Origin: Actinomycetota bacterium | GTDB lineage: Bacteria; Actinomycetota; Actinomycetes; Nanopelagicales; Nanopelagicaceae | Direction of reading: 5' to 3' | DNA length: 34,331 nt | Assembly: GCA_016870815.1 (NCBI GenBank) | Contig: VGAI01000010.1 | Location: 1-34,331 of the forward strand | Shown: positions 16,187 to 34,092 of the stretch, in pieces | Layout: each line of letters starts with the position of its first letter | Numbering within the stretch: position 1 is the stretch's first letter | Program-made: the position numbers and the translations under genes | Notes under the pieces: model-generated | The model's database searches: none | The model's input: only the letters and a program-made list of their open reading frames with translations | Told to the model about the DNA's origin: nothing

Positions 16187-18224
<2,038 letters not shown>

Positions 18225-18240
18225 TTCACTCTTAACTCGT

Positions 18241-18280
18241 TGCTACTTATTGCTACTTATTGCTACTTATTGCTACTTAT
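18241..18280. repeat. Four perfect tandem copies of the 10-bp unit TGCTACTTAT between dapB and azlD
   Basis: Read directly: TGCTACTTAT x4, followed by degenerate TGATATTTGT. Confidence 0.95.
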
Positions 18281-18293
18281 TGATATTTGTTGA

Positions 18294-18620
18294 TTAGATG
18301 AAGTTGTAGACCAGCGCTCCGGTCAGCCCTGCAACTACCAAGACGACGAGAAAACTTCTCTTGAGTCGTAGCGCAATGGCACCAGCAAGTAGACCGGCAA
18401 GACGATGATCGATGACCACTTCACCACTTTTTACCATGGTCTGTGAACCAACAAGAGCGGCTAATAGAACGATCGGAATCAGGGTCGTTATTCGTTGAAG
18501 ACGTTCCTTCGCAAGTATCGAACTCGGAACGTTATATCCGATGATACGAGCAATAAATATCAGTGCACTCGAAATCAGAATCGTTAGCCAGATGCTGTTA
18601 GTAGTCATCGGGCCCGCCAC
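18294..18620 (-). CDS. azlD: AzlD-like branched-chain amino-acid transport protein
   Basis: 108 aa, several hydrophobic segments, overlaps the 3' end of an AzlC-like gene on the same strand. Confidence 0.82.
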   Translation of the reverse strand: MAGPMTTNSIWLTILISSALIFIARIIGYNVPSSILAKERLQRITTLIPIVLLAALVGSQTMVKSGEVVIDHRLAGLLAGAIALRLKRSFLVVLVVAGLTGALVYNFI

Positions 18621-19261
18621 CCGGCAATGAATGCGATGACTACGACCGAGATAATTGGAAGACCAGGGGAGAGGAAAGGTGAGAGAAGAAGTGCCGTGGC
18701 CATCGCGATGAGTGCGATGACTCGAAGCCTTGTTGTGGTGAGTTGGGGCCAGAGCAGTGCAAGAAATGCGGCGGGAACAGCGCTATCAAGGCCCCACTTC
18801 GATGGGTCATCCAAGAGGGATGCGCCGAATGCGCCAACGAGGGTGAAGAGATTCCAGAAGAAGAAGACGCCAAGACCTGTAAACCAAAATCCTTGACGGA
18901 CTCGGTCCTGGTCGCTTTGATCTTGCGCGAGAGCAACGAGAGTGGATTCATCGATTGTGATGTGGGAGGCAACGATTCGCTTAATCCCAGAAGTTCCAAG
19001 AAGTGGCGCCATTCGAAGGGCGTAGAAACCATTACGTAATCCCAAGAGAACGCCAGCGAGAATTGCCGCAATGAGAGTTCCGCCCGCACCGATAACGCCA
19101 ACGATTGCAAACTGTGATGCACCAGAGAATAGAAGGAGTGAGAGCGCACTGGTTTGCCAGATAGAGAGGCCCGCTGCAATTCCGGCCGCGCCGAAGGCTG
19201 CTCCGTAGATACCTACTGGAATCGCAACTCCCATGGATTGGCGGAAGATAGGAGATGACAC
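18605..19261 (-). CDS. azlC: AzlC family branched-chain amino-acid exporter subunit
   Basis: GIAAGLSIWQTSALSLLLFSGASQFAIVGVIGAGG and LRNGFYALRMAPLL match AzlC signatures. Confidence 0.9.
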   Translation of the reverse strand: MSSPIFRQSMGVAIPVGIYGAAFGAAGIAAGLSIWQTSALSLLLFSGASQFAIVGVIGAGGTLIAAILAGVLLGLRNGFYALRMAPLLGTSGIKRIVASHITIDESTLVALAQDQSDQDRVRQGFWFTGLGVFFFWNLFTLVGAFGASLLDDPSKWGLDSAVPAAFLALLWPQLTTTRLRVIALIAMATALLLSPFLSPGLPIISVVVIAFIAGWRAR

Positions 19262-19317
19262 GCGGAGATTCTGCCCTATGGCAAAGAGATATCAGTACTT
19301 TAGATAAGGTCTGGCGC

Positions 19318-20043
19318 GTGAGTGAAGCTAACGAAATCATCTTTCGCGACGATGTGACAGTCGAATTGGTCAAAGCAAGCGCTAATGATGCCGACGTCAT
19401 CTGGGCTGCGCGCGTCTCTACCGCAGGAGAGCAGTCACTGGCAGAGATTGATGCTGATCCCTCTCGTTCTGCCGGGTTGATCAATTACTTGGCTCGCGAG
19501 CGTCATGGCTCACCCTTCGAACATACTTCGATGACCTTCTTCATCTCGGCACCCATCCTTGTCTTTCGTGAGTTCATGCGACATCGAATCGCTTCCTATA
19601 ACGAAGAGAGCGGCCGTTACCGAGAGCTTCGTCCAGTCTTTTACGTGCCGAACAAAGATCGAAAGCTGGTGCAAATCGGAAAGACTGGTGCTTACGAGTT
19701 CATCGACGGAACGAGTGAGCAATTCGATTTGATGGTCGCTGCCATGAAGGAGAGTTACATCAAGTCCTACGAGAGTTATAAGAAAATGCTCGATGCTGGA
19801 ATCGCACGAGAGGTCGCACGCGCTGTCTTGCCGGTCGCGCTCTACTCATCAATGTATGTCACGATGAATGCGAGAGCCTTGATGAATTTCCTCTCACTTC
19901 GAACCTCGCGTGAAGGTTCCCACTTTCCAAGTTACCCGCAACGTGAAATAGAGATGGTGGCGGAGAAGATGGAGTCCCATTTCGCGCAGTTGATGCCCTT
20001 GACCTACTCGGCATTTCAAAAGTCTGGACGAGTAGCCCCTTAA
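19318..20043 (+). CDS. thyX: Flavin-dependent thymidylate synthase
   Basis: ThyX motif RHRIASYNEESGRY; RAREVARAVLP-like C-terminus. GTG 19318 preferred because the ORF-track start at 19255 overlaps azlC. Confidence 0.95.
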   Translation: MSEANEIIFRDDVTVELVKASANDADVIWAARVSTAGEQSLAEIDADPSRSAGLINYLARERHGSPFEHTSMTFFISAPILVFREFMRHRIASYNEESGRYRELRPVFYVPNKDRKLVQIGKTGAYEFIDGTSEQFDLMVAAMKESYIKSYESYKKMLDAGIAREVARAVLPVALYSSMYVTMNARALMNFLSLRTSREGSHFPSYPQREIEMVAEKMESHFAQLMPLTYSAFQKSGRVAP

Positions 20044-20055
20044 ATCGACTCCTCT

Positions 20056-20076
20056 GATCGCCCGCCCGTGGCGATC
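20056..20076 (+). terminator. Stem-loop after thyX
   Basis: GATCGCC-CGCCCGT-GGCGATC (20056-20076), 7-bp perfect stem followed by TCTC. Confidence 0.5.
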
Positions 20077-20102
20077 TCTCGACACCTAGTAACCTTAGCC
20101 TT

Positions 20103-21002
20103 ATGAGCTCGCCTTTCGAGATCCGTCCGCCATTCGGTCGCCTTCTCACCGCTATGGTCACACCTTTTAAGGATGACCTAACAATCGATTGGCAAGGAGT
20201 CGAGAAACTTGCGGCACATCTCGAATCAACCGGCCACGACGGCATTGTTGTCAACGGAACAACCGGAGAAGCTCCGACGACGAGTGATGAAGAGAAGATA
20301 GAGATAATCAAGGTCGTCAAAAATGCGACAGGTGGGCGACTCAAGATTGTCGCAGGCGCAGGAAACAACGAGACGTCGCACTCGATTGAGCAGGCACGAA
20401 TGGCTGCGAAAGCAGGTGCCGATGGGTTACTTGTCGTCACGCCTTATTACAATAAGCCACCACAGGCAGGAATATTCGCACATTTCAATGCCATGGCTAG
20501 CGCAACTGACCTTCCCGTGATGCTCTATGACATTCCTGGGCGAACTGGTGTGGCAATCGAGAGTGAGACCATTGTTCGACTCGCAGAGAATCCAAAGATC
20601 GTCGCACTGAAAGATGCCAAAGGAGACCTAGCCTCGACATCCTGGGTGATAAAGCGATCGGGAATTCCGGTCTACTCTGGTGATGACATTCTCAATCTCA
20701 CTTTCCTTGCAATCGGTGGCGTTGGTTTCGTCTCTGTCTGTGGTCACACTGTTGGCGCTCGCCTTCGCGCGATGCTTGATTCTTGGTTCAAAGGTGACAT
20801 TGCTGCTGCTCAAACGATCCACCATGAGTTGCTTCCGGTATTTACCGGAACTTTCCGCACTCAAGGCGCGATCTTGACCAAAGCCGCGCTCAATCTGATG
20901 GGCCTTCCTGGAGGAAAAGTGCGATTGCCACTGGTCGATGCGACATCCGAACAGATCTCACAACTTCGTGAGGATCTTCGTGCGGGATCAATCAAGATCT
21001 AG
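20103..21002 (+). CDS. dapA: 4-hydroxy-tetrahydrodipicolinate synthase
   Basis: GTTGEAPTTSDEEK, VTPYYNKPPQAGIFAHF, MLYDIPGRTG, KDAKGDL. Confidence 0.96.
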   Translation: MSSPFEIRPPFGRLLTAMVTPFKDDLTIDWQGVEKLAAHLESTGHDGIVVNGTTGEAPTTSDEEKIEIIKVVKNATGGRLKIVAGAGNNETSHSIEQARMAAKAGADGLLVVTPYYNKPPQAGIFAHFNAMASATDLPVMLYDIPGRTGVAIESETIVRLAENPKIVALKDAKGDLASTSWVIKRSGIPVYSGDDILNLTFLAIGGVGFVSVCGHTVGARLRAMLDSWFKGDIAAAQTIHHELLPVFTGTFRTQGAILTKAALNLMGLPGGKVRLPLVDATSEQISQLREDLRAGSIKI

Positions 21003-21037
21003 ATGCCTTTAAGTAACTAGATAAGAATCCAAAACCT

Positions 21038-22720
21038 ATGAACCATCCGCATCCAAACCTTGGTGCACCACCTCGACTGAAGGATGGTGCGCTTCGATTC
21101 ATTCCGCTAGGTGGCCTCGGTGAAGTTGGCCGAAATATGGCTGCTATTGAATATCGCGGAAAGATCTTGATTATCGATTGCGGTGTGCTCTTTCCGGAAG
21201 AGAATCAACCGGGAATAGATCTGATACTTCCAGATTGGTCATCGCTTCGGCACCGAATGAATGACATCGTGGCAATTTTCTTGACCCACGGTCATGAAGA
21301 CCATATCGGAGCGGTTCCCTACCTGCTCAAGGAGAAAGCAGATATCCCGATCATCGGCTCGCAGCTAACAATTGCTTTTCTCGCGACAAAGTTGAAAGAG
21401 CGTCGGATCAAAGCAGATCTTCGAATCGTGAAAGAGGGGGTTCGTGAGAAAGTCGGTGGCTTCGATCTTGAGTACATCGCTGTCAATCACTCGATTCCTG
21501 ATGCCCTGGCGGTCGCGGTAAGGACTGATGCGGGAACCTTCCTTCATACTGGTGATTTCAAGATGGACCAACTCCCACTGGATGGGCGAGTGACGGATCT
21601 TGAGGCCTTTTCGCGACTAGGAAGAGAAGGTGTCGATCTATTCTTCGTCGATTCGACTAATGCCGATATACCTGGCTTCACCATCTCAGAGCGCGAGATC
21701 ATGCCAATACTCGATCGTGTTGTAGCAAGCACAAAGAAACGAGTCATCGTTGCTTCCTTCGCTTCACATGTGCACCGCATCCAACAGGTGATTGATATAG
21801 CCGCCGAACATCAGCGAAAAGTGGTTTTTATCGGTCGCTCCATGGTGAAGAACATGGGAATCGCTGATGAACTTGGATACCTACATATCCCGCCACATGT
21901 GATGATTGATGAGAAAGATCTTGAGAAGCATGGGGACAATGTCGTTCTCATTTGTACCGGATCGCAAGGAGAACCCCTTGCTGCACTCTCTCGCATGGCA
22001 AATGGTGATCACCAGATTCGAGTAGGGGAGGGCGACACAGTCATCTTCGCGTCATCACTAATACCTGGTAATGAGAATTCGGTCTATCGAGTCATCAACG
22101 AGCTCACCAGATTTGGCGCACGTGTAGTTCATAAGGGAAATGCTCTGGTTCACGTCTCGGGTCACTCTGCAGCAGGAGAGTTGATGTACTGCTACAACCT
22201 AGTGAAGCCGAAGAATGTCGTCCCAGTTCACGGCGAGTGGCGACATATGCGTGCCAACGCAGATCTTGCAATCAAATGCGGCGTTCCAGCAAAGAACGCG
22301 ATGGTAATAGAGAATGGCGTTGCGATTGACCTTGAAGCAGGGGTTGCAAAAGTTGTCGGTGCCGTGCCATGCGGTTATGTCTATGTTGATGGTCAAACAA
22401 TCGGTGAGATAACCGAAGCATCACTCAAAGATCGTCGCGTTCTTGGCGAAGAAGGTTTCATCTCAGTCATCGTGGTTATCGATTCGCAGAATGGACGAAT
22501 AGTGGCTGGCCCCGATATTCACGCGAGGGGATTTACAGAGAATCAGAGGTTGTTCGATGAAGTTACTGGGCGAATCGAATCTGCATTAGGAAAAGCAGTG
22601 AGCGAAGGAATCAATGGCACGCATCAACTTTCGCAGATTGTTAGAAAGACTGTAGGAAGTTGGGTGGGCGAAGAACATCGCCGTCGTCCGATGATCGTGC
22701 CCGTTGTCATCGAAGTGTGA
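21038..22720 (+). CDS. rnj: Ribonuclease J
   Basis: Metallo-beta-lactamase HGHEDHIGAVPYLL motif, HTGDFKMD, HVSGHSAAGELMYCYNLVKPKNVVPVHGEWRHM. Confidence 0.95.
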   Translation: MNHPHPNLGAPPRLKDGALRFIPLGGLGEVGRNMAAIEYRGKILIIDCGVLFPEENQPGIDLILPDWSSLRHRMNDIVAIFLTHGHEDHIGAVPYLLKEKADIPIIGSQLTIAFLATKLKERRIKADLRIVKEGVREKVGGFDLEYIAVNHSIPDALAVAVRTDAGTFLHTGDFKMDQLPLDGRVTDLEAFSRLGREGVDLFFVDSTNADIPGFTISEREIMPILDRVVASTKKRVIVASFASHVHRIQQVIDIAAEHQRKVVFIGRSMVKNMGIADELGYLHIPPHVMIDEKDLEKHGDNVVLICTGSQGEPLAALSRMANGDHQIRVGEGDTVIFASSLIPGNENSVYRVINELTRFGARVVHKGNALVHVSGHSAAGELMYCYNLVKPKNVVPVHGEWRHMRANADLAIKCGVPAKNAMVIENGVAIDLEAGVAKVVGAVPCGYVYVDGQTIGEITEASLKDRRVLGEEGFISVIVVIDSQNGRIVAGPDIHARGFTENQRLFDEVTGRIESALGKAVSEGINGTHQLSQIVRKTVGSWVGEEHRRRPMIVPVVIEV

Positions 22721-22770
22721 CGGCGCGCCTTTTCCAGGCCGCGCAGACTTTGTCTTAGGGTTTATCGGTC

Positions 22771-25083
22771 ATGGCCAAGAAAAAAAAGACTGGATTCCTC
22801 CCGGTGCTGGCAGGCGTCATGGGGGCTATTTGGCGTGGCATAGCTAAGACTGTCGGTGGCGCAGTCAGGGTTATATCTCGTTCGGCAAAGGACATGGATG
22901 TCGAGCATCGACGCGACGGGATAGCACTACTTCTTTTGATCGTGATGCTTTTGGCTGTAGCGACTACCTGGTGGAGCCTTGACAATCTATTTGGTCGGTT
23001 TCTTCATGACCTCTTCTTTGGTTTATTCGGTCGGGTCGCTGTGCTTACACCACTCGTCTTTGCTTATCTCTCGTTTCGACTCTTCAAAACTGCCGCAGGT
23101 GAGAGATTTCCACCGAGGTTGATTTTTGGCTCTTTCACTTTGATCTTTTCATCAACTGGCTTGATTCATATCATCAATGGCTCGATAGGAACGGATTCAT
23201 CCTCACTTCAGGCAGGTGGAGGATGGCTTGGATTCGCAATATCGACGCCGCTCGTCGCCCTCGTCACTATCCCACTCGCTTATCCGATTCTAATTCTTCT
23301 CTTTATGTTTGGGATCTTGATAGTGACCGGAACACCAGTCTCGTCAATTTGGCGATGGATCTCTAACTTTGTCACGGGTACCAAAGAGAAAGTTCAAGAG
23401 CGTCGAGAAGCTCGAGAGGAAATCGAAATCGCCGATACCCCGCCCTTTGAAACTCCACTCGTCAAGCAATTAGAAGAAATCGAAGAGTTCGAGGGTTCTG
23501 AGATCGACGAGGAAGAATTTGATGACGAGTTTTCTCAAGAGGTCGAACTCCCTCGTGAATTCACGCCCGAGTCCGAGGCAAAAAAGCCACTACGACCAGT
23601 CCAGCTGGTACTCACTCCCGAGGATGATTACCAACTTCCAAGCATGGATCTGCTGAGACAGGGGCCGCCCAGTAAAGGCAAGAGCAAAGCTAACGAGGAT
23701 GTGGTTGCTGCACTACGCGATGTCTTCCATCAATTCGATATTGACTGTGAAGTCACGGGCTTTATGCGCGGACCCACTGTCACACGGTATGAGGTGGAAC
23801 TTGGTGATGGGGTTAAAGTTGAAGCGATTACTGCTTTAGCAAAGAACATCGCCTATGTCGTCGCAAGTCCTGATGTTCGAATCCTCTCCCCAATTCCTGG
23901 TAAATCAGCTGTTGGTATTGAGATCCCCAATACCGATCGAGAGATAGTGGCTCTGGGGGATGTACTTCGTTCCTCAGTTGCAGGAAATGATCACCACCCG
24001 ATGTTGGTCGCTCTCGGTAAGGATGTCGAGGGAACATTTATCTGTGCAAACCTTGCGAAAATGCCTCACTTGCTCGTTGCTGGCGCAACGGGCGCCGGCA
24101 AATCTTCAATGATCAACTCCCTCGTAACCTCGATTTTGATGAGGGCCACACCTAATGATGTCCGAATGATTCTCATTGATCCCAAGCGAGTTGAGCTCAA
24201 TTCTTATGAGGGAATTCCGCATTTGATCACTCCCATCATCACTCATCCCAAGAAGGCAGCTGATTCACTTGCCTGGGTAGTTCGTGAGATGGATATTCGC
24301 TACGACGATCTCTCTAACTACGGATTCCGACATATTGATGATTTCAATAGAGCGGTTCGCTCTGGAAAGTTGACTGCTCCCGCTAACGCAGAACGCCCCC
24401 TTGAGCCATATCCCTACCTACTTGTCATTGTGGATGAGCTGGCAGATTTGATGATGGTGGCCGCTAAAGAGGTAGAAGATTCGATCGTTCGAATAACTCA
24501 GCTAGCCCGCGCTGCAGGAATCCATTTGGTCATTGCCACGCAACGGCCAAGCGTCGACATCGTCACTGGTTTGATCAAGGCAAACGTTCCATCGCGTCTC
24601 TCCTTTGCGACATCGAGCCTTGCTGATTCTCGAGTCATCCTCGACTCCCCAGGTGCAGAGAAGTTAGTAGGACAAGGTGACGGGCTCTTTTTGCCGATGG
24701 GTGCAAGTAAGCCGATTCGGATTCAGGGCGCTTATATCTCTGAAACCGAGATCAAGGCAGTTGTATCCCATGTCAAAGGGGAGTTGGCGCCGGTATATCG
24801 CGAAGATGTCCTCACGGTCGCTCAAATAAAGAAGATGGTTGATGAAGATATTGGCGATGATATGGATGATCTTCTCGCTGCTGTAGAACTAGTTGTCTCT
24901 ACCCAGTTCGGGTCTACTTCGATGTTGCAACGCAAACTTCGAATCGGTTTCGCAAAGGCTGGGCGCTTGATGGATCTCATGGAGAGTCGAGGAATAGTCG
25001 GGCCATCGGAGGGTTCCAAGGCTCGAGTAGTTCTTGTTAAACCAGAAGACCTTGCTTCGGTGATGGAAACGATCCGGGGCTAA
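22771..25083 (+). CDS. ftsK: DNA translocase FtsK/SpoIIIE
   Basis: N-terminal TMs, [14 protein letters not shown] Walker [14 protein letters not shown] Walker B, C-terminal gamma winged-helix ([38 protein letters not shown]). Confidence 0.97.
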
Positions 25084-25102: not shown

Positions 25103-25681
25103 TCATTTCTTTGTAAAGGTGAAGCGCACCAAAACTTTGCTTTGTGGGACATCGGAACTCGAACGGATTGCGGTCGAGGTGTTTGCCAGGTACTCAAGGC
25201 CACTCTCCTTCATTTTGATGCTGAAGGCTATTGCGCGCAAAGTTCCTTTCTCTGCCGATTCGGTTTTTTCATCAAATCCACCAGTAATCTGGGCAAAGAC
25301 TATTTCAAAGTTTTCGCCAAGATTCTCCTGAGTTCCGAACCGTTCAACATCGGCTACAAAGCGATTGAGGTCGAAGTCTTCGTACAAGAGAGCCAGTCCT
25401 TGATCGAATGTGTATTCAGCGGCAGGTATTCCGCTATTCGATTGAGCAGACGCACCACTATTTGTAGTGCCACTTCCGATGCCTATGCCGCCAGCACCTT
25501 GTTGGGAACTATTACCTATACCTGATCCAGTAGGACTTCGAGTATCGAGAAATTGAGGGACGAAAGAAATAGTGGCCAGAAAGATCACCATCAACGCTAG
25601 AAGAAGATCGGCATACATCCATCCTGCTTGATCTGCGGTGTTCTCTTCCTGCGCGTCGGAAGTTAGCCGTTCGCGTCTCAT
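25103..25681 (-). CDS. Membrane protein with MotB/ExbD-like N-terminal TM (YADLLLALMVIFL) and diverged C-terminal domain
   Basis: 192 aa; AGWMYADLLLALMVIFLATISF resembles MotB/ExbD-type proton-channel TMs with an Asp at the start of the helix. A Gly/Ser linker and about 100-aa C-terminal domain follow. Confidence 0.6.
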   Translation of the reverse strand: MRRERLTSDAQEENTADQAGWMYADLLLALMVIFLATISFVPQFLDTRSPTGSGIGNSSQQGAGGIGIGSGTTNSGASAQSNSGIPAAEYTFDQGLALLYEDFDLNRFVADVERFGTQENLGENFEIVFAQITGGFDEKTESAEKGTLRAIAFSIKMKESGLEYLANTSTAIRSSSDVPQSKVLVRFTFTKK

Positions 25682-26436
25682 TTATCCCAGTCAAATGAGA
25701 ATGAAGGCTTGAGTTTGCGAACCTCTTTGAGAATCTCAGTGTTTGAAGGCATTGCTTTTGTCGTCTTTTCTAGACTCTTGGCAATCTCAAGGAGTGATTT
25801 CGTGCTATTCGATAAATCTTGAACCGATTTCGCAAGTGAATCGCGCATGGTGAGCGGAGTGATCGCTCTCTTATCGAAGAGATATTCACTCAACTCGAGT
25901 GCAAGTTCAAATCGCTCGGCATCAAGAGCGAGAATCTCCTTGTTCCTCATATCTTGCGTGCGTCTTGTTAGCGAGGCCACGACCACTGTTAGCACGATGA
26001 CGAGAGCAATAATGAGGAAGTCCAAGAATGCAATTCGAGTCAAAGTCCACTCTTCTGCGATGTAGCCGTATCCATCTTGCCAAAATTCTAAGAAGTTAAC
26101 GATAGCCGCGGGGTTCTCATCGATATATCGGGAGAAGCCATCTGATGCTTGACCGACCGCGAACCATGTCAGCGCAACTGGAGCGAAGAGCAGTACTCCT
26201 CGGAGAATCGAGAGCCTTCGAGTCCATGCTGAAATTCCGCCGTCACCTTTCGTCTCGGGGCGAGGGAGGTAATCGACGGGATTGAGATCGGCCCAGAGCG
26301 GAAGATTCTTCTGTTCGCGCAAAGCGATGCGTAGCCCCGCGACGTAGGAGTCGTCGATGACCTTATGCCGAGATGACCACTCTTCAAGTTTGGTCGTGAG
26401 CAGTAAGGATCCATCATTTCGGCGCTTCTTTGCCAT
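25678..26436 (-). CDS. Putative membrane partner protein (two TM segments plus coiled-coil-like C-terminus)
   Basis: 252 aa; TMs around LRGVLLFAPVALTWFAVG and FLDFLIIALVIVLTVVVASL; 4-nt overlap with the downstream MotB-like gene. Confidence 0.6.
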   Translation of the reverse strand: MAKKRRNDGSLLLTTKLEEWSSRHKVIDDSYVAGLRIALREQKNLPLWADLNPVDYLPRPETKGDGGISAWTRRLSILRGVLLFAPVALTWFAVGQASDGFSRYIDENPAAIVNFLEFWQDGYGYIAEEWTLTRIAFLDFLIIALVIVLTVVVASLTRRTQDMRNKEILALDAERFELALELSEYLFDKRAITPLTMRDSLAKSVQDLSNSTKSLLEIAKSLEKTTKAMPSNTEILKEVRKLKPSFSFDWDK

Positions 26437-26533: not shown

Positions 26534-27349
26534 ATGTTGCGACCGTTCTCCTTCTTAGTCGAGCGGTTAATCCATCTGAGTGAACATATTCCTCTGTGGG
26601 TAAGAAATCAGAGTCGAGGATCCAGATGGATTCTTCGCATCGCTGGACTTTCTCTGGCGGCCCTCGCGGTGACGCAGTTGATTCCAACTTTGGCGGATGA
26701 AGCAACACCACCACCAAATGAAATCCTCGCCCCTTCCGTAAGTGATAGTGAAACCGTGGTGGTTGTAGACGACACTTCTGAGTCAGGGGGCACGGGTGGT
26801 GATAACTCTGCGGTGACGCCAGGGGAGACTCAAGTAGTCACTTACAGCACTACTGAAACTCAGACGATTGCACCAAAAGAAAAGGCTCGTGCGAAAGAAG
26901 TTCAGTCCACGAACCTACGTATCCCATCAAGGATCAAGATCGACCCACGTTCGGTCACCGCGTTGCTGCCCCTCATCGATCTATCAGGAGAGGGGACGCT
27001 CTTGGCATGTCTTTCTGGTGTGGGACTTCGCTTCGATGGTGCAAATAAGGGTTTCGTTGACGATGTGGATGACGAGAGTTACTTGGTCGACGGAGACTTG
27101 ACCGGGGCGCTTCGAATTTCGGGAAGCGCGGCTCAAATCCTGGGAATCGTCAATGGGTCGGGCGGGCTTCGGGTTTGGGCCAATAGTGGGAGGGTGGTCG
27201 GAAAGACCTTCTCGCTCTCCTTGACCTCTGTGAGTGACCTAACGACTGAGAGCGAGTTCTGTGGCTCTGGTACCACGCGCCAAGTGGCGATTGAGGCTCT
27301 TGGAGTCGGACTTGAGACGAAAAAGGGTAGGCTAGAGCTCAACCGCTGA
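26534..27349 (+). CDS. Uncharacterised secreted/anchored protein with Thr/Ser/Pro-rich stalk
   Basis: 271 aa; hydrophobic segment ILRIAGLSLAALAVTQLIPTLADEA then a low-complexity acidic/Ser/Thr region and a possible beta-rich C-terminal domain. Confidence 0.6.
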   Translation: MLRPFSFLVERLIHLSEHIPLWVRNQSRGSRWILRIAGLSLAALAVTQLIPTLADEATPPPNEILAPSVSDSETVVVVDDTSESGGTGGDNSAVTPGETQVVTYSTTETQTIAPKEKARAKEVQSTNLRIPSRIKIDPRSVTALLPLIDLSGEGTLLACLSGVGLRFDGANKGFVDDVDDESYLVDGDLTGALRISGSAAQILGIVNGSGGLRVWANSGRVVGKTFSLSLTSVSDLTTESEFCGSGTTRQVAIEALGVGLETKKGRLELNR

Positions 27350-27456: not shown

Positions 27457-28170
27457 GTGCTGAAGATGAGGATTCTCATGTCCATGTTGCAGTCGCCGCT
27501 GAGCGGGCGAGTGCGCACGGGTTTTGGTGGCGCAAGGCGTCATAGATCGAAAATACTTTTCGGAACAGCCGTTATCGCTTTTGTTCCATTTCTTCTCTCT
27601 ACTTTTGCAGCGAGCGTGACTGTCGGCAGTGGAACGCTCGAGTTCGGACAGGGTTCTCAGCAAGCGGTGGCATGTGACGAAGTTGTTTATGTAGCTCTTA
27701 GTCAAGAATGGCATTCATCGCCTCAACCAAGTGACTCTTCTTTCGGTTTCTTCCGAATCAAATCGGTAACTGTTTCGAATCTCGATCTTCTAACATGTCG
27801 AGATAAGAAACTTCGAGTTCGACTCATTGATGTGAACGGGCAAGAGATTCAAATTGGTGGAGCAGTCGATGCGAAAGTTCTCCAGGTAATCCTGCCAAAC
27901 AGCGATGCGCCGGTGAGTAGCAGCGACCCAGTTGCTCTACGTCTCACTTATCTAACTGGCGGCGGCCAAGTGATAACAGGAACAGTAAATGCGAGTGTTG
28001 CCGTTTCAGTCTCTGGAACTTCTATTTACGATGGAAGTGTCTTAACGCCTCAGTCGGCAGATGTCACTTTCTACCTTGATCCAACCGCGCAGGTAGTGAA
28101 CGTCAATGGAGAGTCAGTTGGAAGAACAACTGTTGAGACTATGAATAATCCGAAGCCTATGAATAGTTGA
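27457..28170 (+). CDS. Secreted protein of the EFGQG/CD...C family, paralog 1 (true start uncertain; 27457, 27466, 27478 or 27484)
   Basis: Signal-like segment ILFGTAVIAFVPFLLSTFAA then SVTVGSGTLEFGQGSQQAVACDE ... LLTCRDKK ... TTVET. Confidence 0.7.
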   Translation: MLKMRILMSMLQSPLSGRVRTGFGGARRHRSKILFGTAVIAFVPFLLSTFAASVTVGSGTLEFGQGSQQAVACDEVVYVALSQEWHSSPQPSDSSFGFFRIKSVTVSNLDLLTCRDKKLRVRLIDVNGQEIQIGGAVDAKVLQVILPNSDAPVSSSDPVALRLTYLTGGGQVITGTVNASVAVSVSGTSIYDGSVLTPQSADVTFYLDPTAQVVNVNGESVGRTTVETMNNPKPMNS

Positions 28171-28368
28171 TATGTAATTCTTTTTTTGTTTTGATTGATT
28201 CGTCAGCTTTTTGAGGTCTGTCGCAATTTTGTTTTCTACCATGCTCGCATTTAATGCCAAGCAAATTCATTCGCAAAATTTCTAGATATTTCTCTTATTT
28301 TTTGGTTGAATCAGTGCATGGATTGAGATTCCTCTAAGCCAAGAGGGTTAACGATCCTGTACTACCAA

Positions 28369-28380
28369 TGTTTGCAAACA
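28369..28380. promoter_or_regulatory. 12-bp palindrome TGTTTGCAAACA upstream of paralog 2
   Basis: Exact self-complementary sequence 25 bp before the 28406 ATG, in an AT-rich 235-bp intergenic region. Confidence 0.4.
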
Positions 28381-28405
28381 ACTGACAGAAGAGGAAAACA
28401 TAAAA

Positions 28406-28960
28406 ATGGAAATACTTAAGTTCGAAGGCTCTTCGCGAGCGCCTTTGAAACAAAAGAAATCATTCCGAGTAATTCTCGGAATCACTGTGATGGGTGTATT
28501 TGCAGCGCTTGGTTCAACTCTCGCTGCCAATATCACCATCAACTCGGGACCGGTTGAATTCGGTCAAGGTCTCGCTGCGGCAGCGGCTTGTGATAGTTCA
28601 ATTTCAGTCATACCGAGATCAAGCTTTACAAACTCTTCGGACACGGCGGGTACCTTCTATCTTTCGGGTATCACCTTTACGAACGTCGACACCACAACTT
28701 CGGGCTGCCGCGGAAAGTCATTTGTAATCAACTCATATGACTCTGGTACTACTCGAGCGAACTACCATGGTTATGGTGCAGGCTCTGAGTCGTACACAGC
28801 GGTGACTGTTGCCATTACTGACACCTTCTCGGTGAGCAGCATGGGCACAAATAAGCCTTCGATTTCGACAAGCGGCACAGGATTTATCCTGACTTTCGAC
28901 ACCCCGATCACTACTGCGGGAAGCGTTTATAAAGTCACGGTTGAATCGCAAGGAAGCTAA
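28406..28960 (+). CDS. Secreted protein of the EFGQG/CD...C family, paralog 2
   Basis: MEILKFEG start, TM ending in STLAA, NITINSGPVEFGQGLAAAAACDSS ... SGCRGKS ... VYKVTVESQGS. Confidence 0.75.
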   Translation: MEILKFEGSSRAPLKQKKSFRVILGITVMGVFAALGSTLAANITINSGPVEFGQGLAAAAACDSSISVIPRSSFTNSSDTAGTFYLSGITFTNVDTTTSGCRGKSFVINSYDSGTTRANYHGYGAGSESYTAVTVAITDTFSVSSMGTNKPSISTSGTGFILTFDTPITTAGSVYKVTVESQGS

Positions 28961-28984
28961 GTAACCCTTGGCTTTCCTTCTTGA

Positions 28985-29035
28985 ACTGACCAGCAAAGCT
29001 GAGTCAGTCCTCTTGCGTATCTTCTTGACGCAAGA
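28985..29035 (+). promoter_or_regulatory. Two consecutive hairpins between paralogs 2 and 3
   Basis: ACTGACCAGC-AAA-GCTG(a)GTCAGT (28985-29008) and TCTTGCGT-atcttcttg-ACGCAAGA (29011-29035). Confidence 0.55.
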
Positions 29036-29071
29036 AATGCCTCAATGTCAGTAATCGTGGGAGTCTGATAC

Positions 29072-29665
29072 ATGGAGATTTTGAATCTCGAAGGGCCGAA
29101 ACGCCCTAAGGGAAAACACCCTTTCCTCAAGGGTCTCCTTGGCCTGGGCGCACTCAGCGCCCTGGCCGGTATCAGCATGACGGTTGCCGCACAGATAAAC
29201 ATAAATGCTGGAAGTGGATCGGTTGAATTTGGCCAAGGTTCCGCTACAACCATCACTTGCGATGAAGAAGTAACTGTCACGCCTTATAGCGGTTATGTGA
29301 ATCTCTCGGATACGGCGGCGATGTTCACTGTTGATTCAATAGAAGTCGCAGGAATATCTGATGCCTGCATAGGCAGCGACTTCGTTTTGAGAGTCTTCTC
29401 TTCGACATCGGGTACCGCAGCAGCAAATCTCACGAATAGCGATTCCGGTACTGTCTTCTATGACTACGCACGAATCTCTTACAGTGCTGGAAAGCAATTC
29501 TCTCAAGTTGGAAATGGATATGTGTGGATTGAGGCGGATACTGCCACCACAAACTCGGCTACGTTTGAAGTGGTTCTAGATCCTGACGAAATTGATAGCG
29601 GTCAGATTATTGATGCGAGAAATGTGTCAAAGGTGACTCTTGAGACTGTCAAAACTGGCAGCTAA
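29072..29665 (+). CDS. Secreted protein of the EFGQG/CD...C family, paralog 3
   Basis: MEILNLEG start, TM ending in TVAA, INAGSGSVEFGQGSATTITCDEE ... SDACIGSD ... VSKVTLETVKTGS. Confidence 0.75.
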   Translation: MEILNLEGPKRPKGKHPFLKGLLGLGALSALAGISMTVAAQININAGSGSVEFGQGSATTITCDEEVTVTPYSGYVNLSDTAAMFTVDSIEVAGISDACIGSDFVLRVFSSTSGTAAANLTNSDSGTVFYDYARISYSAGKQFSQVGNGYVWIEADTATTNSATFEVVLDPDEIDSGQIIDARNVSKVTLETVKTGS

Positions 29666-29677
29666 TGACACTGCAAA

Positions 29678-30379
29678 ATGTCTAGTTATCAACGCGTGCG
29701 CGTCTTTCCTGATGATGCTGGGATAGACCTCTTCATCGAGGGTCAGGAGACCAATGATCCATGCAACGTCCTGGTCACTGTCTCTAGTGGTGAAGGTGAA
29801 CGGACTTCGCTCATTCGCCCGAATAAGATTGTGGAAACAAAAGCAAAGTACTTTGTAGCAACGCCGCCAGAACGAGTTGTCACTGGCAAAGAGAAGTCTC
29901 TACAAAAACTTAGAAGCATCGCAATTGCGGCTGGTTATGTCCTCGCATCAATTTTGATTGCCTTCTCGGCCCTATCTTTTACGGATGTCGTTCGTGCCAG
30001 GATTGTTCTCACAGAATCTATGTCGCCAGCAATCGATCCAGGAGATTTGATTCTTACAACTTCGCCTGAACGTCTGATGCCGAAGATTGGAGATGTAGTT
30101 TCATATACAGCCAGAAGGTTCGATGGCGCACCAGTCGGAACCTTCTCACACAGGATTATTGAGGGTGACCCGGTCAACGGGTTTCTAGTCAAGGGAGATA
30201 GCAACCCCAGCCCCGATGTTCAGCGTCCTAAACTCGGTGACATTGATGGCGTTGTAATATTCGTTATTCCTTTTCTTGGCTTGCTTCTCTCTCCGCGCGC
30301 ACTTTTTATAATCATCCCAAGTATCTTTGGTTTCTGGCTAGTGATGGATGCGCTTCGAGGCGATGATGAAGTCAAGTAG
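29678..30379 (+). CDS. Signal peptidase I of the SipW/ER (Ser-His) type with N-terminal extension
   Basis: TM LASILIAFSALSF, catalytic-like ESMSPAIDPGDLIL, GDVVSY, FSHRIIEGDPVNGFLVKGDSNPSPD, VVIFVIPFLGLLLS; His rather than Lys in the second catalytic position. Confidence 0.88.
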   Translation: MSSYQRVRVFPDDAGIDLFIEGQETNDPCNVLVTVSSGEGERTSLIRPNKIVETKAKYFVATPPERVVTGKEKSLQKLRSIAIAAGYVLASILIAFSALSFTDVVRARIVLTESMSPAIDPGDLILTTSPERLMPKIGDVVSYTARRFDGAPVGTFSHRIIEGDPVNGFLVKGDSNPSPDVQRPKLGDIDGVVIFVIPFLGLLLSPRALFIIIPSIFGFWLVMDALRGDDEVK

Positions 30380-31937
30380 ATCTTTCGCACTCATCCTTCT
30401 CGCCTTTACTTTTATCTTTATCCCAGTATCGGCGAAGGCACTTGATATTCCACTCCTCACCTGGGAGCGTGGCAAAGAACAAAATTTGGTCCTAGGTGGC
30501 AATGTAGAGAATCAGTGGAAAATAGAACTCATCAATGAAGCAAATGAGAAAGTTCTTGATTTCCGAGAGAGTGATATCAGCGCCAACGGATTTAAGGTCT
30601 ATTCGACCTCTATCCCCAATGACTTTCCGATTGGTGCATATGCAGTTAGAGCCACTGGGATTGGCATTCCAGGCTCAATAGTTGCGGGTGTAACTATCGT
30701 TGGCCTCTCTTACTTTGAGGTCACACAGATTCCTTTCGAGTTGCTTTTAGTCTTCCTTGCCTACGTCTTTGTGACAGCGTCTTTTGCCGTGATGCGAATC
30801 AGAAAATATGGCCTGGTAAGAGTGCCAGAATTCGATGACTTAGATCTGGATATCATTCCGCCACGATTGGCTACGTTGCATCGCCTTCGCGAGAAGGCAA
30901 CTGGCAATCTTGAGCCATCACTCTTTCAACTCCTTTTGAGAAGAGAGGGCGGATGGATTCGCTTGCGATCACATTTCCTTTGGAGCGCATTCCCGATCTT
31001 GAGCCTTCTTATTGGTGGGGCGCTAGGTATTCAAATCCTTCGCGAAGGCGGTCTTGGTAAAGCATCCTGGCTCTGGCTCTTGCTCGGCGCGATGATTGCT
31101 TTGATTGATCTCTATTCCGCAATCATTGCATTTACGGGACTCGTCTTCTCACATCTCATCTTTGGTGATGTGGTTTCACTGAGAGAAGTGATGGTACTTC
31201 TCGCTCTTGGTCTTGGCTGGTTTGGTTCTTACGCATTGGCATCAATCATGGACCTTCTTCATGAGAAGAGGGATAGCTCTGACGATTTGAGTGAGAGATC
31301 ACGAGAATCCGAGAACTGGCAAGGAAGAGTTCTTGCATCCTTGATAGCAGGAATGGTCTTCCATGCGACTCAAATTCTTGTGCTGAGCCTTGTGGTCGCG
31401 GTCGCAGAGCCAAGAGCGACCTCGTGGCTGCTCTCTGCTGCTTTTGCAGCGGCAACCCTTTTGAGACTTCAACTACGAAGCTCGCTTGAATCTTCAACCG
31501 CACGTAGTTCTTTGACTATGGATTCTAAAACGGTGGGCCGAGTGATTGCGGGCAAGACCACCGGGTTCCTTGCACTTTTCTTTGTTGGAACAATTTATAT
31601 CTGGGTCAGAGATTGGATTTCTGCTCTTGCCTTGGGTATTGCACTAGTAGCGCCGTATGCCCTTCTCCTAGTTCGATTCACTGGTCCAAAACTCTCTTGG
31701 TTGAGGAAAGTGCCTCGTTCAGCACTTGTGGAGGCATTGATCGTTACTGCATTCGCCTATGGGATTTTCACCGCTCTGCAAGATATGCCATTCGAAGTCT
31801 TGGAGCGATCGCGACTCTTCTTGATTATTGGAGTGATTCCAGTTCTCGTGCATTCTCTGTATTGTGCGTTGTGGGATGTAGTTGATCGCGACAGGTCGCT
31901 AGATGAATTCGCTACCGAAGAGGGGAGTAGATTGTGA
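30363..31937 (+). CDS. Uncharacterised polytopic membrane protein with N-terminal signal and extracytoplasmic domain
   Basis: Hydrophobic N-terminus (FALILLAFTFIFIPVSAKA), about 85-aa hydrophilic domain, then many TMs. Start (30363/30366) overlaps the signal peptidase stop; 3' end overlaps the collagen gene start. Confidence 0.65.
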   Translation: MMKSSRSFALILLAFTFIFIPVSAKALDIPLLTWERGKEQNLVLGGNVENQWKIELINEANEKVLDFRESDISANGFKVYSTSIPNDFPIGAYAVRATGIGIPGSIVAGVTIVGLSYFEVTQIPFELLLVFLAYVFVTASFAVMRIRKYGLVRVPEFDDLDLDIIPPRLATLHRLREKATGNLEPSLFQLLLRREGGWIRLRSHFLWSAFPILSLLIGGALGIQILREGGLGKASWLWLLLGAMIALIDLYSAIIAFTGLVFSHLIFGDVVSLREVMVLLALGLGWFGSYALASIMDLLHEKRDSSDDLSERSRESENWQGRVLASLIAGMVFHATQILVLSLVVAVAEPRATSWLLSAAFAAATLLRLQLRSSLESSTARSSLTMDSKTVGRVIAGKTTGFLALFFVGTIYIWVRDWISALALGIALVAPYALLLVRFTGPKLSWLRKVPRSALVEALIVTAFAYGIFTALQDMPFEVLERSRLFLIIGVIPVLVHSLYCALWDVVDRDRSLDEFATEEGSRL

Positions 31938-32878
31938 AACGCCTTGCCCTCTTTCTACTTGTTATGACTTTGACCGGCGCGGGAGTCTCGTACGCTGAAA
32001 CTAATAATCGAATTCGGAGTTTCTTTCTTGGAAATCAACAACTAAGTGGAACTGGACTCAATCAAGTTCTCTCACTACTTGTTGGGCCGGAAGGAGAGCC
32101 AGGTCCTGCAGGTGTGCGCGGAAGAGATGGCGCCGCGGGCTTGAATGGAAATGATGGCGCACCTGGTCCACAAGGGCCGGCTGGGGCTACGGGTGCACAG
32201 GGTCTTCAAGGACTACCGGGGACTCCGGGGCAATCGGTTGTGACTGTGCAACTAGCGATCGGATCGACAAATTGTCCTAACGGAGGGACGCAGATAACGG
32301 ATGGTTCAGGTGTTGTGACCTTTCTTTGTAACGGTGAACGTGGTGCAGCTGGAGTTGCAGGAGCAACCGGAGCGACAGGAGCAACCGGAGCGACAGGAGC
32401 GCAAGGCGCTGCAGGAACGGTCGGTGGCGGAACAAGCATTAACGGCACAGGGCAGATTTCATTGGGCGCCTGCGATTCGAATCTCACCGTGGACTTCAGC
32501 TCCCTCTTCGTCAGCAATGGATTCATACTTCGAAAGATCAACATGAATGATCTTGCTAGCGCATGTAATACGCGACGGATAAGCGTCTTCTTTCCTGTTA
32601 AATCAGATACGCCCACAATAGGTGCGAACCCCACGCCGCCATATCGCTATGCATCAGGGTCAAACCGCGATTACATAGATTGCACCACTGATTCCGCGAT
32701 TACAGGAATGGCGGGCGACACCAATACCGTGACTCTCGCGTCATCAAATCCCACCGTGACAGGATCAGGGGTCTATACGATGAGTTGTACGGTAAGAAGA
32801 ACGGGAAGCACGGTTACCTTCGCAGAGCTCTATACGGCAGATATCGATGAGAACATCGGTTTCCAGATCGCACCGTAG
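31934..32878 (+). CDS. Secreted collagen-like (Gly-X-Y) protein with C-terminal CD...C domain
   Basis: Signal peptide LALFLLVMTLTGAGVSYA; 17 Gly-X-Y triplets then 10 more; C-terminal ISLGACDSNLTVDFSSLF...ASACNTRRISVFF. GTG start overlaps upstream TGA. Confidence 0.85.
   Translation: MKRLALFLLVMTLTGAGVSYAETNNRIRSFFLGNQQLSGTGLNQVLSLLVGPEGEPGPAGVRGRDGAAGLNGNDGAPGPQGPAGATGAQGLQGLPGTPGQSVVTVQLAIGSTNCPNGGTQITDGSGVVTFLCNGERGAAGVAGATGATGATGATGAQGAAGTVGGGTSINGTGQISLGACDSNLTVDFSSLFVSNGFILRKINMNDLASACNTRRISVFFPVKSDTPTIGANPTPPYRYASGSNRDYIDCTTDSAITGMAGDTNTVTLASSNPTVTGSGVYTMSCTVRRTGSTVTFAELYTADIDENIGFQIAP
32084..32236 (+). repeat. Gly-X-Y collagen-like tract 1 (17 triplets)
   Basis: GPEGEPGPAGVRGRDGAAGLNGNDGAPGPQGPAGATGAQGLQGLPGTPGQS. 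Confidence 0.9.
32333..32422 (+). repeat. Gly-X-Y collagen-like tract 2 (10 triplets), includes an 18-bp DNA tandem repeat (32360-32395)
   Basis: GERGAAGVAGATGATGATGATGAQGAAGTV; DNA unit GGAGCAACCGGAGCGACA x2. Confidence 0.9.
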
Positions 32879-32925: not shown

Positions 32926-33672
32926 ATGGCAAAGAAGAAGATTGAGGCGCAGGAGCCCGCCATATCCACAATACCCCTGCCTTCACAAGATTCGCCGCTC
33001 GTAATCGACTTACCGGATGGGCAGAAACTCGTTGTTGGCAACATCGCTCAAGGTACGGTTATCGAAGTTGCTACATGGCGAGGAACTGGGCGACCCGACT
33101 CGCGAACCAATCGTTTAATGCTTGGCGTTAGCTCCACAGAAGAAGCGTCGCAGCCAGTGAATAAGGATTCAGCTCCATCAGGGAGTGAAGAAAAGAAACC
33201 TCAGAACAAATTTCTTGGAGTAGCATTGAATTTCTTCAAATCGCTCTTTGTATCCAAGAAGAAAGATCCAGCTCTCGATGAACTCGATGCCTTCATTGCA
33301 GAAAAAGAACGCGAGGCTCTCGATAACCTGAAAGAAGATCTCAGCGCTAAGGAGAAGGATTCTTCAAAGCCAAAGGCCAGTCGCAGAGCTCCACTCATCG
33401 AGGAGTCGGAAGATATAAAGAGTTGGCTTGATGAATTAATGGATAGCACCACTAAGGAATTCGAGCGACAATCTGAAGAGATTGCGATCCCTGCAAAAGG
33501 AAAGGTTCGTCGCGTTACCGAGAAGTCGAGATCTGGTGCGAGTAAGGGTAGGAAGGGCGCGAAAAAGGGTCAGAGAGTTGGAAAGAGGCGCTCTGGATCG
33601 AGCTCAAGCGCGAGTAAGGCGAAGAAAAGACCTGCTTCGAAGCGGGGCAATACCAAGAAGCGTAGGAAGTAG
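32926..33672 (+). CDS. Uncharacterised cytoplasmic protein with Lys/Arg/Ser-rich C-terminal tail
   Basis: 248 aa; N-terminal VIDLPDGQKLVVGNIAQGTVIEVATWRGTGRPDSRTNRLMLGV, central acidic helix-rich part, tail RSGASKGRKGAKKGQRVGKRRSGSSSSASKAKKRPASKRGNTKKRRK. Confidence 0.7.
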   Translation: MAKKKIEAQEPAISTIPLPSQDSPLVIDLPDGQKLVVGNIAQGTVIEVATWRGTGRPDSRTNRLMLGVSSTEEASQPVNKDSAPSGSEEKKPQNKFLGVALNFFKSLFVSKKKDPALDELDAFIAEKEREALDNLKEDLSAKEKDSSKPKASRRAPLIEESEDIKSWLDELMDSTTKEFERQSEEIAIPAKGKVRRVTEKSRSGASKGRKGAKKGQRVGKRRSGSSSSASKAKKRPASKRGNTKKRRK

Positions 33673-33702: not shown

Positions 33703-34092
33703 TTGCGTATGCAGCAGGAGCGAGGTGAGGAGAGCCAAGTGTTAACGCGGCGTGGGAAAGTTGCTATTGGGGTGGTCGTTGCCCTCGTGATTCTCTTCGC
33801 GCTTGGAATCCGCGTGACTCATCCGCAATCTGGTATGGAACACGCTTTAGGTTCTGCGGAGTCGAGTATTGCAATCTATAGAGTGACGGATAACTATTCG
33901 CTGGACGACAAAGTGGTGGTGGCTCTCCCTGAGAATGGTCCTGCGCTCGGTATTGTCCGGGGAGTCGTTGACGGTTCACTTGACGTTCAGATTGGCGGAA
34001 CCCTCTTTCGTCTTGCTCTCGATGATGTGAATGGCAAGATGGTTGTGATAATTCCGTTCTTGGGTTATCCACTCAGTTGGGTCGGGCTCTAG
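33703..34092 (+). CDS. Small membrane-anchored protein resembling a degenerate S26 signal peptidase fold (start may be GTG 33739)
   Basis: One TM (VAIGVVVALVILFALGI) then DDKVVVALPENGPALGIVRGVVDGSLDVQIGGTLFRLALDDVNGKMVVIIPFLGYPLSWVGL. It ends like SipW/ER-type peptidases but lacks SM-P and HRI motifs. Confidence 0.55.
   Translation: MRMQQERGEESQVLTRRGKVAIGVVVALVILFALGIRVTHPQSGMEHALGSAESSIAIYRVTDNYSLDDKVVVALPENGPALGIVRGVVDGSLDVQIGGTLFRLALDDVNGKMVVIIPFLGYPLSWVGL

Follow-up and report, generated by a model that had tools for sequence, protein, structure and literature searches.

A conserved Nanopelagicaceae gene cluster pairs secreted beta proteins with a SEC11/SipW-like signal peptidase and may encode a surface fibre

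Results

Three related secreted proteins are encoded side by side

The window analysed here is the whole stretch of 34,331 nucleotides from an Actinomycetota bacterium of the family Nanopelagicaceae (contig VGAI01000010.1). It carries three neighbouring genes, P1 to P3, as follows.

27457..28170, + strand: P1, secreted beta protein (ORF call)
28406..28960, + strand: P2, secreted beta protein (ORF call)
29072..29665, + strand: P3, secreted beta protein (ORF call; alignment with 73 other members)

The start of P1 is ambiguous, with GTG at 27457 and in-frame ATGs soon downstream. All three proteins share a signal peptide, the motif EFGQG-x6-CD, a second Cys located 41, 39 and 36 residues on, respectively, and a C-terminal T(V/L)E strand. 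The landmarks are a predicted mature start at ~27610, EFGQG at 27640-27654 and Cys codons at 27673-27675 and 27796-27798 in P1; ~28526, 28556-28570, 28589-28591 and 28706-28708 in P2; and ~29192, 29225-29239, 29258-29260 and 29366-29368 in P3.

An earlier note on this DNA had proposed from such motifs that the three proteins form a paralogous family. The three ORFs and all the quoted motifs were recovered: the Cys are separated by exactly 40, 38 and 35 intervening residues (C73/C114, C62/C101 and C63/C99 in ORF numbering), the C-termini are GRTTVET, YKVTVES and SKVTLET, and paralogs 2 and 3 have MEIL(K/N)xEG and N(S/L)SDTA(G/A) in common. The note did not mention the N-terminal signal/transmembrane segment that each protein carries, the fourth, two-domain paralog or the signal peptidase gene that follows P3. 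The family itself is real, as local-alignment scores of the mature parts (P1-P2 106, P1-P3 87, P2-P3 158) exceeded the maxima of 1000 shuffles per pair (70, 64 and 79, respectively). In the region past the CD motif, P2-P3 was still significant (0/1000 shuffles as high); P1-P2 and P1-P3 were not significant over that region alone (68/1000 and 134/1000). P1 was placed firmly in the family because the wider family profile, whose rows include P1 and its orthologs, scores it at 137 bits.

The same note had taken the three genes for a tandem duplication. Between P1 and its orthologs from other genera the identity is 62-64%, against only ~26% with P2 and P3, so the paralogs are older than the genera and the duplication is not recent. 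It is thus very improbable that P1-P3 arose by recent tandem duplication of some ordinary secreted protein and have no special system behind them: three related genes do stand in tandem, but both these identities and the conserved order of the cluster contradict this reading. P1-P3 are true paralogs and belong to a wider family rather than forming an isolated tandem duplication.

The family has no Pfam or NCBIfam entry and is patchily distributed

Searches of Pfam and NCBIfam with P1-P3 gave no meaningful match, and the family, which is unknown to both databases, is patchy within Nanopelagicaceae. A profile of P1-P3 found relatives in 9/60 relative genomes, all of the same taxonomic family. 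A DNA pattern for EFGQG-x6-CD, which fixes EFGQG and CD and leaves the second Cys free, was then run on 85,462 species genomes and matched 101 stretches, nearly all in freshwater actinobacterial assemblies, several of them titled Candidatus Nanopelagicaceae or Planktophila. HMM searching yielded 191 distinct family members of 67 to 598 residues (some cut by contig ends), with up to 17 matches per genome. In an alignment of 74 sequences, E11, G13, G15, C22 and C61 were invariant. Selection by the pattern sets EFGQG and CD, but not the second Cys, the N-terminal alternation described below or the gene neighbours. The second Cys was present in 116/118 motif-selected members, though it lay outside the search pattern, and its conservation is the best evidence for a presumed structural Cys pair.

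Long members fuse the N-terminal module to Laminin_G_3, Lectin_C, Lcl_C or TIG domains (the Lcl_C matches are under the Pfam cut-off). The source genome holds four family genes, the fourth being a two-domain paralog on another contig (G000:C24 15715-16692; loci L039, L155 and L156). The second domain of this protein has the Cys pair and lacks EFGQG, a natural test of whether EFGQG is needed only at a free N-terminus.

Pattern matches in Parashewanella, Bacteroidales, Saprospiraceae, Alphaproteobacteria, Streptomyces europaeiscabiei, Rhodococcus and Nonomuraea were rejected, as their records contained no family member. One match in viral contigs (L148) was likewise set aside because the motif is not in frame in any of its ORFs; the viral-contig pattern search gave no sign that the family is viral, and A3 also yielded no relative. 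Several assemblies (L048, L085, L095, L097, L112, L134) are titled Bifidobacterium breve or Streptomyces griseus and contain Nanopelagicaceae-type family genes or clusters; these titles are probably wrong.

The genes lie in a conserved cluster with a dedicated signal peptidase

The remaining genes of the cluster are as follows.

26534..27349, + strand: secreted protein upstream of P1, with a conserved place in the cluster and no Pfam/NCBIfam family
29678..30379, + strand: ER/archaeal-type signal peptidase (S26B, SEC11/SipW-like) with Ser-His-Asp catalytic residues
30348..31937, + strand: cluster membrane protein with a signal peptide, an N-terminal extracellular domain and ~11 hydrophobic segments
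31934..32878, + strand: collagen-like protein (Pfam Collagen 1e-13)
32926..33672, + strand: charged cytoplasmic protein at a conserved cluster position, with no Pfam/NCBIfam family
33703..34092, + strand: small single-pass membrane protein at a conserved cluster position

The recurring order is a divergent pair (25678/25103), 26534, P1, P2, P3, the peptidase, the 11-TM protein, the collagen-like protein, 32926 and 33703. The peptidase, membrane protein and collagen-like gene followed one another in every Nanopelagicaceae cluster with enough downstream sequence. In Microbacteriaceae/Micrococcales the cluster is shorter, consisting of a 155-200 aa beta protein and the peptidase without the membrane protein, and a collagen-like or related gene was present in 3/4 loci. 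Both the family and its conserved cluster are direct observations, and the unit of interest is the entire cluster with its own peptidase rather than three isolated paralogs. The C-terminal head (~32438-32875) of the collagen-like protein is the Cys-pair domain of the family, but has no free N-terminal strand (hhalign of the heads against the family, 97.5%, E 9e-12). The 11-TM protein had no relative in Pfam or PDB. Consensus promoters and terminators were no commoner than in shuffled sequence.

The 29678-30379 protein has the features of an S26B peptidase: a Ser nucleophile, His replacing Lys and Asp in KGDxN. S114, H158, D174 and D180 were invariant in 22 sequences, and the peptidase profile matched human SEC11A at 2e-9 with the catalytic residues aligned. 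This catalytic Ser-His-Asp layout, the SEC11A match and the TIGR02228 hit liken it to SEC11 and Bacillus SipW (S26B), whereas it scores 48.7 bits against TIGR02228, slightly under the cut-off of 51.85, and has an N-terminal extension of ~75 residues. The source genome also encodes an ordinary signal peptidase I (contig C72, 136.9 bits). The C-terminus of the 33703-34092 product (IPFLG..) resembles the end of the peptidase and lacks catalytic residues (hhalign only 38%); this product is a possible inactive partner of the peptidase.

The association was scored in 200 genomes of the taxonomic family, independently of the family-selected loci from which the peptidase profile had been built. Close peptidase relatives were defined by E < 1e-40, a line drawn where scores fall from E 3e-40 to 1e-17. 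All 26 genomes with a close peptidase relative also carried the beta family, which was present in 38/200 genomes overall (Fisher p 9e-24). The other 12 of these 38 had no close peptidase relative; some are incomplete bins, and they include two genomes about 99% complete (G018 and G082) and one single contig (G101). The peptidase is thus linked to the family.

This linkage bears on an improbable alternative, in which the N-terminal helix stays uncleaved and anchors the proteins in the membrane as adhesins with a beta domain, while the linked peptidase acts on another substrate. In each member a basic stretch precedes one hydrophobic helix at the N-terminus, and this helix might just as well serve as an anchor. 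Small residues at the expected cleavage place (T-x-A-A) speak against it, however, as does the linkage of a dedicated signal peptidase in Nanopelagicaceae and in distant classes alike.

Several observations concern the surroundings of the cluster. The divergent pair beside it (25103-26436, - strand) resembles a MotA/MotB- or ZorA/ZorB-like ion-driven motor pair. One partner is a single-pass protein whose conserved N-terminal membrane segment (GW..AD..L.L.VIFL..ISF) contains an invariant Asp; two membrane segments are predicted in the other. The pair is kept beside the cluster in several genomes, and the ZorB match is weak (E 0.012). Further upstream (16187-25083) lies a housekeeping run with an M16 peptidase, dapB, an AzlC-like gene, thyX, dapA, RNase J and FtsK.

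Short relatives occur in other Actinomycetota classes

A phylum-wide search found short relatives of about 130-150 aa in other classes, in which SLGAG replaces EFGQG and the Cys pair is kept. The family profile matched the short-relative profile at 99.5% (hhalign, E 4e-23). Since this second profile includes some EFGQG members, the independent evidence is a direct HMM match at 4e-14. Most of the short relatives stand in tandem. Six genomes have an S26B peptidase on the same strand at a distance of 610-804 bases from them. No nearby S26B peptidase was found at G847:C31 or in G760, where contigs end near the genes. In one distant genome, the beta genes are separated from the peptidase by the gene of a secreted protein whose sequence looks like a DNRLRE-type domain (L158:4953-5627).

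A conserved N-terminal segment is predicted to be disordered in the monomer

AlphaFold models of P1 (pLDDT 84) and P2 (pLDDT 80, eight strands) were all-beta and are predicted beta-sandwiches with a similar strand order, in which the C-terminal strand holds the T(V/L)E motif. In the P2 model both Cys lie a few residues ahead of strands, in confident regions. Residues 1-13 of P1 and 1-14 of P2 were almost all below pLDDT 50 and are predicted to be disordered; the mean pLDDT over residues 1-10 was 36-40 in both models. Despite this low pLDDT, residues 3, 5, 11, 12 and 13 were among the most conserved. Mature residues 3, 5, 10 and 12 were hydrophobic (VILMFWY) in 97, 100, 73 and 100% of sequences, respectively, with polar or small residues between them, an alternation over residues 3-12 that has the pattern of a beta strand lacking a partner in the monomer.

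The earlier note's suggestion of a compact secreted beta domain with one disulfide therefore holds in part. Secretion is borne out by the signal peptides and the adjoining signal peptidase, the compact beta-rich domain by the P1 and P2 models, and a single Cys pair by its conservation. EFGQG does not simply belong to the compact domain: it begins within the conserved segment that is predicted to be disordered in the monomer.

Recognition by the peptidase or by a partner could also account for a conserved disordered N-terminus. A processing or sorting signal for the peptidase, perhaps involving the 11-TM protein, on separate and non-polymerising secreted or surface-attached beta proteins is an unlikely but serious alternative. 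It is consistent with the tight linkage of the peptidase, with the position of EFGQG only about 11-15 residues past the predicted cleavage site, and with an N-terminal module common to long members whose C-terminal domains differ. Against it stand the beta-strand alternation, the extent of the shared module, which goes beyond a short signal and takes in the folded Cys-pair part, and the collagen-like proteins, which retain the Cys-pair part without a free N-terminus.

Foldseek searches against PDB gave no match at E < 0.001 for either model; antibody domains and unrelated sandwiches (E > 0.05) were rejected. Matches of PDB profiles to the fusion protein F2 were rejected as chance, the best being 0.00075; they cover a stretch of ~35 residues.

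Discussion

A surface fibre is the favoured reading

Given the dedicated peptidase, the strand-pattern N-terminus, the subunit paralogs, the collagen-like protein with the same head and the members with lectin domains, we lean towards reading P1-P3 as surface-fibre subunits whose processed N-terminus would act as a donor strand into the next subunit. In the scheme that we infer, each protein would be exported by Sec, and the SEC11/SipW-like peptidase of the cluster would cut the signal peptide at about T-x-A|A. Cleavage would free the alternating-hydrophobic mature N-terminus, A-N-I-x-I-N-x-G-x-V-E-F-G-Q-G, which would enter the beta-sandwich of the following subunit as a donor strand, a disulfide between the two Cys fixing the subunit fold. 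The collagen-like protein, with the same head domain and no free N-terminal strand, may be a tip or cap, and members from related genomes whose C-termini are lectin-like may be adhesive tips. The 11-TM protein is a candidate platform that would anchor or assemble the fibre. The roles given to the collagen-like protein and the membrane protein are guessed from how the two are built.

The S26B linkage, the N-terminal alternation, the second Cys, the lectin/TIG members and the lack of a sortase count for the fibre. Counted against it are the lack of a significant Foldseek match, the lack of a sequence relation to TasA or threads, and the 12/38 genomes without a close peptidase relative. The source genome (83% complete) contained no sortase, which does not fit sortase-assembled pili. 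Nor was a VKOR, which might have formed the disulfide, found in that genome, and no chaperone-like gene was evident; both absences weigh against the fibre.

Comparison with known fibre systems

The tapA-sipW-tasA operon of Bacillus encodes TasA together with SipW, which processes it; residues 28-38 at the mature N-terminus of TasA form a donor strand for the next subunit (PMC9674648). The present cluster likewise places genes for secreted, predicted beta-sandwich subunits beside that of a dedicated ER/archaeal-type signal peptidase, and the mature N-terminus of its subunits has the pattern of a hydrophobic strand. It differs from TasA-SipW-TapA in its conserved Cys pair, several subunit paralogs, collagen-like member and 11-TM protein. 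P1-P3 matched no TasA/camelysin family model in Pfam or NCBIfam; no sequence relation to TasA or threads emerged from these or from the PDB profile searches, where no TasA appeared. The TasA jelly-roll was not among the 50 best Foldseek matches listed for P1 and P2. Because sequence and fold gave no such relation, the cluster was not assigned to TasA; it resembles TasA-SipW in gene layout and would be a variant of the donor-strand kind of fibre.

Archaeal threads also have an N-terminal donor strand, and the residues that immediately follow their cleavage site are conserved (PMC9715654). The present proteins resemble threads (Saci_0406) and bundling pili in their presumed export by Sec and cleavage by a signal peptidase, in a conserved mature N-terminus, which is the donor strand there, and in a possible cap encoded next door (PMC9715654). 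Those fibres are archaeal and glycosylated, however, and share no sequence or significant fold match with the present proteins. Chaperone-usher and type V pili resemble the cluster in the proposed donor-strand polymerisation and in lectin-like tip proteins, but no chaperone or usher was recognised in it.

Significance

Nanopelagicales are generally described as tiny free-living cells, and we found no published description of such fibres in them in the literature searched. They rank among the most abundant freshwater bacteria (PMC10202952). The cluster was present in about a fifth of the sampled genomes of the taxonomic family. Tentatively, and with rather less than even confidence, it may represent an undescribed, phylum-wide class of Actinomycetota donor-strand fibres with its own SEC11-like peptidase, a collagen-like tip and lectin-bearing adhesive subunits, unrelated in sequence to TasA or archaeal threads and patchy in these abundant free-living freshwater bacteria. 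If true, such a fibre would be a surface organelle, possibly relevant to attachment, phage contact and grazing. The cluster points to dedicated SEC11/SipW-type peptidases being paired with beta-sandwich subunits far beyond Bacillus and archaea, and it provides a domain family, without a Pfam or NCBIfam entry, that is open to direct testing.
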